Origin: Fibrobacter sp. UWB13
GTDB lineage: Bacteria > Fibrobacterota > Fibrobacteria > Fibrobacterales > Fibrobacteraceae
Assembly (NCBI RefSeq): GCF_900177805.1
Contig: NZ_FXAX01000001.1
Coordinates: 1,178,001-1,242,000 of the forward strand
Direction: 5' to 3'
Length of the DNA stretch: 64,000 nt
Position numbers and translations under genes: made by a program. Positions 18,363 through 63,390 of the stretch are shown piece by piece; the first letter of the stretch is position 1, and each line of letters starts with the position of its first letter. The notes under the pieces are model-generated. The model did not search any database. It saw only the letters and a list, made by a program, of their open reading frames with translations, and was not told where the DNA came from.

Positions 18363-18448
18363 ATGGCGATCCCGTCCCCATTCGCGGATCATGACTACTA
18401 AGCAGCAAAGCTGCAAGTAGTCAAAGAGAACGGAGTCCGGGATGACAT
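18363..18448. repeat. 86-bp palindromic dispersed repeat, intergenic copy
   Basis: The outer stem is ATCCCG / CGGGAT (18369-18374, 18438-18443). The inner hairpin is GACTACT / AGTAGTC (18393-18399, 18416-18422) with a nested GCAGC / GCTGC. A second copy lies inside the UvrA-like gene at 55777-55862 with compensating base changes in all three stems. Here it forms the 3' untranslated region of sdhB. Confidence 0.85.
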
Positions 18449-42198: not shown

Positions 42199-42230
42199 TT
42201 GTCATGCCCGATTTAATCGGACATCTCCTT
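42199..42230. repeat. GTCAT-type short palindromic repeat
   Basis: TTGTCATGCCCG, a short loop, CGGACATCTCCTT. The same frame (TGTCATNCCCG ... CGG..ATCTCCTT) appears inverted at 63359-63390. Confidence 0.65.
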
Positions 42231-44375: not shown

Positions 44376-44418
44376 GGATCCTTCGACTTCGAGGCTACGC
44401 CTCTTCGCTCAGGATGAC
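44376..44418. repeat. GTCAT-type repeat between the two esterase genes
   Basis: On the minus strand it reads GTCATCCTGAGCGAAGAGG then GCCTC and CGAAGTCGAAGGATCC, an imperfect palindrome forming the intercistronic spacer. Similar sequences (GTCATCCTGAGCGAAG...CGAAGGATCC) are common dispersed repeats in several bacterial groups. Confidence 0.7.
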
Positions 44419-55293: not shown

Positions 55294-57864
55294 ATGCTTG
55301 ATTACATTTCGATTCGCGGTTGCAGACTCCATAATTTAAAGAATGTCAACGCCCAGTTTCCGCTGGGGAAAATTACGGTTGTATGCGGACCATCGGGTTG
55401 CGGAAAATCGACGCTCGTGATGGACACGCTCCATGGAGAAAGCAAGCGACGTTACCTAGAGACGCTCTCGCCTTTTGCGGCAGATTTACTCGGAGGCAAG
55501 CGAACGATTCCGCTGGACAGCGCCGAAGGACTCCCGGCAAGTTTAGCGATTGCCGCCACGCGTGGAGAAGCCCCCGCAAAAGCATCAGCGCTTTCGATTG
55601 CCGAATGTGATAACGCATTGCGAACATTGTTTGCCGCATTTGCAAAGCCCGCCTGCCCCATTTGCGGAGCTCCGATGGTGAGCCAGAGCCGCGAAGAGAT
55701 TATTCGCGAAATTGCGGGAATGCCAATAGGGACGAAGCTACAGTTCTTGGCGAAAATCGAAACGGGAAATGCGGAAATGGCGACCCCGTCCCCATACGCG
55801 GATCATGACCACATAAGAGCTAAAGCTCTAAGTGGTCAAAGACAACAAGTGCGGGGTGACATCAATGCAGACAGGAATGACAAAAAGAAAGCGCAGAGTA
55901 AGAGTCGCACGACGTTGGATAAACTGTCGGCCGTATTTTTGGCACAAGGTTTTACGCGAGCGTTGGCCGATGGCACGATGTATTCGCTAGCAGACTTGCT
56001 CCCTGGCGAAAAGGTTTTGACGCCCAAAGAATTTTTCATCATCGTTGATAGAATCATCGTTCGTGAAAACACACGCACACGAATCGCAGAAGCCGTTGAC
56101 GGTACGCTAAAGCTCACGCACTCTGCAATTACGCTTGACATTGCTGGCGAACGCAAGTTCTATAGTACAAAGCCGTGCTGCCCGAATGCAAACGACAAAC
56201 AGCACCAAACAAGCGACATACAAGAAACCATCGCGAGCCTAGATGCGCGTGCGTTCTCGCCATACAGCCGCACCAGCGTCTGCGAATACTGCGAAGGCAC
56301 GGGAATCATTCAAGAAGCTGCCCCAGCAAAAATCAACGAGAAAGGAGGCGGCAAAGGTCGCGCTGAATCCAATGTAGAAAGTGACGAGGACGAAAACGCA
56401 GAATGCTCGCACTGTCACGGGCTCCGCCTCAAGAAAACATACTTGAACGCGACTGTGGATGATATCAGTTACAAGCAAATTCTCACGACGGAATTTGCAA
56501 ATTTGCCAGAACATCTGCACAAAATTTTCGATAACAAAATCGGACAGAACTTAAAAGCGACATTCAATTCGCTTCTCGATCGCATTGAAGCGATTAACGA
56601 TTTGGGCATTGGTTACCTCACGCCAGGACGCGCGGGGCAAACGCTTTCTGGCGGCGAATTGCAAAGACTCAAACTCGCAAGCCTCAGTACAGGGCATTTG
56701 AATGGTCTTTTGATAGCGCTTGACGAACCCGCCAGCGGTCTCCATGCCAGCGATGTCACGGCTCTTTGGAAAGTTCTCGAGAAAATCCGCAAGCGCGGCA
56801 ACACGCTCGTACTTATCGAACACAATCCGCAAATCATCAAGCGAGCTGATTACATCATTGAAATGGGGCCGGGCGCAGGCGAAAAAGGCGGCGAGATTTT
56901 GTTCCAGGGCAACCGCGACGAAGTGCTTGAAAACCCAGGCTCGCCCACGGGAATGTGGATTAGGAAATTAGACGAAAGTGGAGATTCCCGCTCGGCGGCA
57001 ATCCAAAACACCAAAGAAAGCACAGCGATTCTCGTTGATAACTTCGCGAAGTTCGACATGGCACCGGTGAACGCAGCCTTCCCCATCAACAAATTCAGCG
57101 TGATTACAGGCCAAAGCGGCAGCGGAAAATCGACGCTCCTTTTTGAAAACATCGCCAAACGCGCCAAAGCCGAAGAATTCAAAAAGCTCGGCATCGACGC
57201 ACTTTCCATCCTCACGACCGGTGATTTTCACGGGAGCAAACGCAGCACCGTCTTGAGCGCCATCGGCCTCACCACACTATTACGCGACTTGTTCGCCAAA
57301 CTTCCCGAAAGCAAAGTACGTGGCTACACCGCCTCCAAATTCAGCATGCACGCCCCCGGCGGTCGCTGCGAAAATTGCAAAGGCGAAGGAGTCATCTACG
57401 ATCCGCTCGGCTACGAAGAATCCGAATGTCCCGTTTGCCTCGGCAAGCGCTTCCGCGATGAAGTCTTGGAAATCCGATTCAAGTCGCTTTCCATAGCCGA
57501 CATCTTGGACATGGAAATCGGTAGTGCATACAAGCTATTCACGAACATGAAGCCGTTCGCTGAAAAACTGAAACCGCTTGTAGACACAGGCCTTGACTAC
57601 TTGAAACTCGGTCAAACGACAGCACACCTCTCCGGTGGCGAACGCGCTCGACTCCGCCTCTCCATTACACTCGCGCGAGCCAAAGCCCCGAACACATTGT
57701 TCCTCTTTGACGAACCCGCTCGCGGTCTCCATCAAAAGGATATCCAGCAGTTGCTCGGGCTCATTCACGGACTTTGCAATGCCGGCCACACCGTCATTGC
57801 TATTGAACATGCACAAGACTTCGTCGACGCCGCGGATTATGTTGTCGAATTGAAGAGAGGCTAG
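55294..57864 (+). CDS. UvrA paralogue (excinuclease ABC subunit A-like) with in-frame repeat insertion
   Basis: The 856-residue protein has two ABC ATPase halves: Walker A GPSGCGKST (about 30-38) and GQSGSGKST (about 607-615), signatures LSGGELQR and LSGGERAR, Walker B LLIALDEPASG and LFLFDEPARG, and three CxxC pairs (CPICG, CEYC/CSHC, CENC...CPVC). It is shorter than canonical UvrA (about 940), with most of the insertion domain replaced by a low-complexity stretch (GGGKGRAESNVESDEDE). Residues 162-199 are encoded by a copy of the palindromic repeat at 18363, placed in the loop matching the GRKGE loop of the UvrB-binding domain. It may act in damage or drug-adduct handling independently of UvrB; that is inference. 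Confidence 0.9.
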   Translation: MLDYISIRGCRLHNLKNVNAQFPLGKITVVCGPSGCGKSTLVMDTLHGESKRRYLETLSPFAADLLGGKRTIPLDSAEGLPASLAIAATRGEAPAKASALSIAECDNALRTLFAAFAKPACPICGAPMVSQSREEIIREIAGMPIGTKLQFLAKIETGNAEMATPSPYADHDHIRAKALSGQRQQVRGDINADRNDKKKAQSKSRTTLDKLSAVFLAQGFTRALADGTMYSLADLLPGEKVLTPKEFFIIVDRIIVRENTRTRIAEAVDGTLKLTHSAITLDIAGERKFYSTKPCCPNANDKQHQTSDIQETIASLDARAFSPYSRTSVCEYCEGTGIIQEAAPAKINEKGGGKGRAESNVESDEDENAECSHCHGLRLKKTYLNATVDDISYKQILTTEFANLPEHLHKIFDNKIGQNLKATFNSLLDRIEAINDLGIGYLTPGRAGQTLSGGELQRLKLASLSTGHLNGLLIALDEPASGLHASDVTALWKVLEKIRKRGNTLVLIEHNPQIIKRADYIIEMGPGAGEKGGEILFQGNRDEVLENPGSPTGMWIRKLDESGDSRSAAIQNTKESTAILVDNFAKFDMAPVNAAFPINKFSVITGQSGSGKSTLLFENIAKRAKAEEFKKLGIDALSILTTGDFHGSKRSTVLSAIGLTTLLRDLFAKLPESKVRGYTASKFSMHAPGGRCENCKGEGVIYDPLGYEESECPVCLGKRFRDEVLEIRFKSLSIADILDMEIGSAYKLFTNMKPFAEKLKPLVDTGLDYLKLGQTTAHLSGGERARLRLSITLARAKAPNTLFLFDEPARGLHQKDIQQLLGLIHGLCNAGHTVIAIEHAQDFVDAADYVVELKRG
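55777..55862. repeat. 86-bp palindromic dispersed repeat, coding copy
   Basis: Outer stem ACCCCG / CGGGGT (55783-55788, 55852-55857), inner hairpin GACCAC / GTGGTC (55807-55812, 55832-55837) with nested AGAGCT / AGCTCT. Compared with 18363-18448, base pairs have changed on both sides (T-A to C-G in two stems), so the fold is conserved. Confidence 0.88.
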
Positions 57865-63358: not shown

Positions 63359-63390
63359 AAGGAGATTTCCGCTCAGAGGCGGGAATGACA
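63359..63390. repeat. GTCAT-type short palindromic repeat
   Basis: AAGGAGATTTCCGC ... GCGGGAATGACA, the inverse of the copy at 42199-42230. Confidence 0.65.

Follow-up and report, generated by a model that had tools for sequence, protein, structure and literature searches.

How does a palindromic repeat come to lie in frame inside a UvrA-like gene, and by what steps did it reach its present form? The locus is in a gut bacterium, Fibrobacter sp. UWB13, in a window of 64,000 nt (NZ_FXAX01000001.1, positions 1,178,001-1,242,000, forward strand), the whole stretch of DNA analyzed here. A sequence-only reading of this window had described two 86-bp copies of one covarying palindromic element, one intergenic (18363-18448) and one translated within the gene (55777-55862), and had compared them to the coding palindromic elements (RPE) of Rickettsia. 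We followed these copies through a genus-wide set of 80 Fibrobacter genomes. Below, G000 designates the genome of UWB13 itself, the other G numbers designate the genomes compared with it, and copy counts per genome are lower bounds.

The window copies belong to a family dispersed across Fibrobacter

Both copies are present and share nearly all positions, and the stem pairs quoted for them (ATCCCG/CGGGAT versus ACCCCG/CGGGGT, GACTAC/GTAGTC versus GACCAC/GTGGTC) are correct. Each copy out-folded 200 of 200 dinucleotide shuffles on both strands, with RNA folding z values of -3.3 to -4.9. A BLAST search with the intergenic copy detected at least 21 matches in G000, where about 20 long copies exist, and matches in 48 of the 80 Fibrobacter genomes. 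A covariance model built from 26 long copies matched at least 28 sites in G000, at least 33 in G043 and at least 46 in G046, with few matches in G077 and G003; its weakest matches were outer palindromes standing alone or copies split by a further module (M2, see below). The outcome that would have spoken against the element, namely no further copies in any Fibrobacter genome, was thus not observed, since copies are dispersed across the genus. The description of a dispersed, covarying, protein-coding palindromic element comparable to the RPE of Rickettsia therefore stands, and no account of it in Fibrobacter was found in the literature searched.

The element is a composite of a short palindrome and an inner module

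The element is real, but the element proper measures 83 nt (55779-55861 for the uvrA copy), a REP of 29 nt enclosing an inner module of 54 nt, hereafter M1. This composite make-up, a REP plus a site-specific module, had been overlooked when the copies were taken for a single element, and the strand could also be refined, the tagged end of the uvrA REP lying on the minus strand (Table 1). On the strand starting with TGTC, the element reads TGTC-A-y-n-CC-s...M1...-GG-n'-r-TC-n-CC. Without M1 it is a 29-30-nt palindrome, the bare REP, with the pattern TGTC-AT-n-CC..GG-n'-AT-CnCC, loops CTTG and CTCCG, and a tail CGCC, CTCC or CACC that is often followed by A or T. Neither terminal inverted repeats nor a terminal duplication were apparent in about 30 bare copies. 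The bare pattern has at least 35-36 matches in G000 and was matched in 71 of the 80 Fibrobacter genomes, in all of which a reversed control pattern scored 0; the control for the REP had 0 matches in 168 genomes. The search detected bare REPs in Fibrobacter, in two genomes of a sister genus of the same family and nowhere else in the phylum. A second repeat family (GTCATCCTGAGC...GGATCC) is present at window positions 44407-44418 and also adjoins some long copies (flank of L014).

This anatomy resembles that of the superfamily of CGTC-tagged REPs (Di Nocera et al. 2013, PMC3733652), to which RPE-4 and RPE-6 of Rickettsia belong. The two share a TGTC/CGTC tag at one end, an 8-bp stem beginning with AT and a 4-5-nt loop. 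The tag is part of our search pattern, yet it is also present in the copies found by the covariance model or by BLAST. As for the stem (8-9 bp, first pairs A-T, loop of 4-5 nt), an uninterrupted 8-bp stem was obtained in 46 of 70 copies after excision of M1. A short unpaired tail is present as well, but it differs slightly, reading CnCC where that of CGTC REPs is mostly CCA. A further difference is that a hairpin module of 53-54 nt, itself split by another, interrupts the Fibrobacter REP at a constant position. The text of PMC3733652 makes no mention of Fibrobacter.

M1 is a hairpin module of the form TCTTTGAyyAC - apical stem - GTrrkCATGATCCGCGnATGGGGA, 53 nt long in type A and 54 nt in type B. 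Almost all parsed copies have it at one place, beginning 19-20 nt after the tag and leaving 10 nt to the end of the REP tail; the exceptions are copies with decayed or deleted right ends. This point is constant across the REP stem subtypes CCGG, CCCG, CCCC and CCGC. Virtual excision of M1 from 70 copies yielded 56 distinct 29-30-bp REPs, 10 of which exist as intact REPs in the DNA examined. A stem of at least 7 bp was restored in 49 of the 70 copies and in none when the cut was shifted by 1-4 nt; as the cut followed the conserved ends of M1, this is a test of agreement between these ends and the palindrome, and the two agree. The type of M1 correlates with the subtype of the REP (type B mainly in CCGG, types A and C in CCCG), so that many copies may have spread as a unit. 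M1 does not display the features of a MITE, its ends TCTTT and GGGGA not being inverted repeats, and these ends share no direct repeat of the kind that permits precise deletion. A degenerate M1-like hairpin devoid of REP arms (L231) was seen inside another repeat context and is too degenerate to be interpreted as an M1 outside a REP.

In some copies the apical loop of M1 carries M2, a module of 79 nt (GACGC-TTT-GCGTC...) belonging to a genus-wide repeat family present in 58 of the 80 genomes. M2 is inserted at one point of the loop in several apical-stem variants. Its inner hairpin is hypervariable yet palindromic: between L250 and L251 it is swapped whole, GACAGTCTGC/GCAGCCTGTC versus AAAATCAAG/CTTGATTTT, within conserved flanks. 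The M2 core was also encountered at the same place of a carB-like (carbamoyl-phosphate synthase large chain) stretch in L299, L300 and L301 (G029, G061 and G015), with similar matches in G044 and G008; there the upstream frame is ended by TAG and the downstream part lies in another frame, and the stretch is possibly a shared carB fragment or a pseudogene. Another apparently conserved coding region containing the M2 core is common to G032, G036 and G038 (L296-L298).

Table 1. Features of the window, with the strand on which each is read and the basis of its assignment.
Feature	Position	Strand	Basis
Intergenic composite: REP (30 nt) and M1 type A (53 nt)	18365..18447	-	Sequence; locus bare in G006 and G008
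M1 type A (53 nt) of the intergenic copy	18375..18427	-	Sequence comparison
Bare short REP, one stem mismatch, TGTCATGCCCGATTTAATCGGACATCTCC	42200..42228	+	By sequence
UvrA-like gene (856 aa) containing the in-frame element	55294..57864	+	UvrA_inter domain; TIGR00630; UvrA structures
Expanded loop, 49 codons, UvrA interaction region	55762..55908	+	2-5 codons in 42/70 orthologues
Composite element in uvrA: 29-nt CGTC-type REP split by 54-nt M1	55779..55861	-	Sequence
REP right half, CGGGGTCGCC	55779..55788	-	Sequence comparison
M1 type B (54 nt = 18 codons), hairpin GACCAC..GTGGTC and apical stem	55789..55842	-	Absent from the same REP in G043/G052
REP left half, TGTCACCCCGCACTTGTTG	55843..55861	-	Sequence comparison
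Remnant of another REP end, TGTCATTCC, also in this loop	55874..55882	-	G054 and G018 have fuller tandem remnants
Bare short REP, one stem mismatch, TGTCATTCCCGCCTCTGAGCGGAAATCTCC	63361..63390	-	By sequence

Filled and empty loci in related genomes

The intergenic locus is bare in G008, where GGTGATCCCG is directly joined to GAACGGAGTCCGGGATGACA, and G000 is one base apart with 53 nt at the junction. It is bare in G006 too, with a left flank 95% identical to that of G000. At three other loci, M1 is present in G043 and the REP bare in G000, M1 and M2 are present in G043 and the REP bare in G005, and M1 and M2 are present in G043 with M1 only in G071. The uvrA locus has M1 in G000 and a bare REP in G043 and G052. 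The flanks of most of these same-locus pairs match well on one side only. No target duplication was visible at the filled and empty pairs; M1 would thus enter without one, so that its removal restores the REP. The spacer that holds the intergenic copy follows a terminator facing sdhB-like genes (window 18365-18447; L193-L206 in relatives), and the repeat families it carries differ from one species to another, which gives it the look of a site where repeats are replaced.

The stems covary with almost no G-T pairs

At the freest stem position, 117 of 120 bare REPs have a Watson-Crick pair (C-G, G-C or T-A) and one has G-T, against a shuffle mean of 40.8, although relatedness among copies inflates these counts. 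Over the five variable stem positions of the 120 REPs, G-T pairs fill 5 of 600 cells. Long copies covary like bare ones. The innermost REP pair of the uvrA copy differs on both sides from that of its relatives, being C-G in G000 and G-C in G052, although its arms are now 54 nt apart; one of the two differences replaces E by Q and the other is silent. Near-perfect Watson-Crick covariation with almost no G-T is what DNA palindromes spreading or copied as hairpins would leave, unlike selected RNA, and the stem covariation thus fits DNA-level hairpins better than RNA selection. The sequence-only reading had left a choice between selection for structure and recent spread of variants: the covariation is indeed strong, and selection finds no support in the near absence of G-T. 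No Rfam family was matched at threshold; a known RNA family was discarded as an identity of the element, the only sub-threshold matches being leaders that overlap the neighboring terminator.

The loop of the UvrA-like protein has received REPs repeatedly

The 856-aa product aligns with solved UvrA structures and with the UvrA interaction domain, and its best NCBIfam model is TIGR00630, at 585 bits against a UvrA equivalog cut-off of 730. The uvrA copy is predicted to be translated in frame within this UvrA relative, as had been proposed, giving a loop peptide that includes MATPSPYADHDHIR... The insertion site was likewise placed correctly in the loop that bears GRKGE in UvrA, aligning with GKKGT of 2r6f at the GRKGE position. 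The figure of about 35 added residues was too low if the whole expanded loop is considered, which spans 49 residues (55762-55908) versus 3-4 in most orthologues. A structure model of the protein, computed from 11 sequences, reached a mean pLDDT of 42 and was unusable for placing the insert.

Among 70 orthologues (those bearing names are mostly Fibrobacter succinogenes and Fibrobacter sp. MAGs), many lack the insert: the loop has 2-5 codons in 42, a CGTC-type REP in 13 and other expansions in 15, including a different palindrome in G022. The segment is consequently not common to all orthologues, nor is it carried without conserved pairing, which would have counted against the element. All loop lengths are multiples of three. 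A bare REP, GGCGACCCCGGAACAAGTCCGGGGTGACA, occupies the loop in G043, G052, G069 and G054, and G000 alone has M1 in a REP of this type, at the same point and adding 54 nt (18 codons). The REP would thus already have been in the gene before M1, an order that had escaped the sequence-only reading. Another REP subtype is found in the loop of G071 and G072, REPs with other inserts in that of G018, G001 and G008, and loop REPs also occur on distant branches, in G019 and in G002 with G045, beside REP-less relatives. On a gene tree built without the loop, the REP state changes at least 8 times, and a single REP clade was rejected (p-AU 5e-7). Loop REPs thus appear to have been gained more than once; if the gene has recombined, fewer of these gains may be independent. 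In other Fibrobacter species (L063-L065, L067, L075, L125, L132), the same loop is expanded by low-complexity GKSAAGK-like repeats that bear no relation to REPs.

The uvrA copy carries the 54-nt type B module; the 53-nt type A would shift the frame. It has the attributes of a protein-coding palindrome, being in frame and stop-free in a conserved gene and absent from some orthologues. Among the bare REPs examined in G000, three more lie in frame in conserved genes, as judged by ORF context and domain hits: in a CobA/HemD fusion (CHAGLRSGIS, in the HemD domain), in a UvrD-type helicase (WRSRNKSGMT) and in a tRNA-dihydrouridine synthase (RRSRNGVRDD), the last two outside the stretches aligned to solved structures.

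Search for a transposase

G000 encodes one Y1 transposase, a canonical IS200-type tnpA without REPs at its ends. No Y1 gene was detected in the M1-rich genomes G043, G046, G001, G008, G018 and G052, and none of those in other genomes is flanked by REPs; a RAYT or IS200 enzyme was thus rejected as the mover. IS110 transposases (PF02371) are absent from G000, G043, G046, G005, G001, G071 and G072 and, where present, have neither M1 nor full REPs in their flanks. IS110 was therefore discarded both as the mover and as the parent of a miniature element, being absent from most M1-rich genomes. In the Y1 and IS110 families examined, the Fibrobacter REPs thus have no associated transposase, as is the case for CGTC REPs in general (PMC3733652).

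Discussion

We propose that the element is probably a nested, non-coding mobile palindrome built in the order REP, M1, M2, and that the uvrA REP was in frame before M1 arrived. The composite anatomy, the fixed point, the filled and empty loci, the repeated gain of loop REPs and the covariation are all shown by the comparison of sequences. At a first level, the 29-30-bp CGTC-type REP would disperse through Fibrobacter genomes; at a second, M1 would enter REPs at one point located 10 nt from the end of the tail, leaving no visible target duplication; at a third, the 79-nt M2 would enter the apical loop of M1 likewise. In uvrA, an in-frame REP would first have become established in a loop of the UvrB-interaction region that tolerates insertions and, in this lineage, the 54-nt M1 would then have entered that REP, adding 18 codons with neither stop nor frameshift. 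We infer that movement proceeds by transposition of DNA, probably as a single-stranded hairpin, or by site-specific recombination, with an enzyme acting in trans. That the direction was insertion and not precise loss is suggested by the rarity of the long form and by one gene tree.

M1 might instead pass from one REP to another through their arms, by homologous recombination or gene conversion, with no dedicated insertion reaction. Exchange through short arms could place M1, M1 and REP subtypes are correlated, and neither the Y1 nor the IS110 family supplied a transposase candidate; however, the shared arms are short, about 10 and 19-20 nt, each long copy has arms of the subtype proper to its locus, matching the bare REP found there, and the insertion point is constant across subtypes, which makes this route rather unlikely. 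Precise loss of the inner module from an ancestral long form is improbable. State changes counted on a tree do not distinguish gain from loss, but bare REPs occur in 71 of the 80 genomes and in the two of the sister genus, few long copies occur outside the F. succinogenes clade, the M1 ends offer no shared direct repeat for precise deletion, and the uvrA forms of G043, G052, G069 and G054 are all short.

Two further explanations invoke selection. Stems kept for RNA structure, cis-regulatory or mRNA-stabilizing, with the gene copy as a by-product, would account for the strong covariation and for the folding of the window copies, and for REPs elsewhere a role as RNA is assumed (PMC3733652). We nevertheless hold this to be hardly probable, given that G-U pairs are almost missing although three pair types coexist, that the palindrome persists inside a coding loop, that repeat families have been exchanged for one another at a single intergenic site and that Rfam holds no family matching at threshold. 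It is very improbable that the insert was kept because it changed the function of the UvrA-like protein, for instance UvrB binding: the same loop of the interaction domain has been hit repeatedly, and REPs in repair genes recur in other species (PMC3733652), but loop length and sequence vary freely among close relatives, as expected of a tolerant loop. The added residues are presumably tolerated rather than useful.

Intragenic REPs are already known in other phyla, including in uvrA: they lie inside uvrA, uvrB and other repair genes of Rickettsia conorii, O. terrae and Thioalkalivibrio (PMC3733652), a precedent that the sequence-only reading had missed. Like these CGTC REPs, the Fibrobacter family has in-frame intragenic copies, including in nucleotide-excision genes, and, among Y1 and IS110 enzymes, no dedicated transposase. 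It behaves like Rickettsia RPE-1 and other coding palindromes, which are longer palindromes in frame in conserved genes, except that the longer form in Fibrobacter arises within a REP that is already in place. IS1397, ISKpn1, IS621 and ISPpu9/10 target REPs at a constant point (PMC1525189), and here too the point is constant and in silico excision restores the REP; in contrast to these elements, M1 and M2 are non-coding, 53-79 nt long and devoid of terminal inverted repeats or visible target duplication. With REP/RAYT systems (REPINs) the family shares short dispersed hairpins, possibly moved as single-stranded DNA, but its tag is TGTC, with neither the GTAG tag nor a RAYT. In the literature searched, which left many subscription papers out of reach, we found no description of nested REPs, of a non-coding hairpin module with a constant REP point and a further module inside it, or of repeated in-frame turnover of such modules in one protein loop. 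What is new is the host phylum, the site-specific nesting and the loop turnover.

As a tentative possibility, M1 and M2 might be the first of a class of very small, non-coding mobile hairpins whose site-specific homing into other hairpins nests them level by level, by means of an enzyme or pathway unrelated to Y1, RAYT and IS110. The mode of movement matters for CGTC-type REPs at large, including the coding palindromes of Rickettsia, to which no transposase has been tied. In Fibrobacter, copies are nested, close relatives have a given locus filled or empty, and some genomes lack both of the usual suspects, so that candidate enzymes can be searched for by comparison. The UvrA loop, for its part, may preserve a stepwise record of a selfish palindrome becoming protein, from a bare loop to a REP and then to a REP with its module, always in frame.
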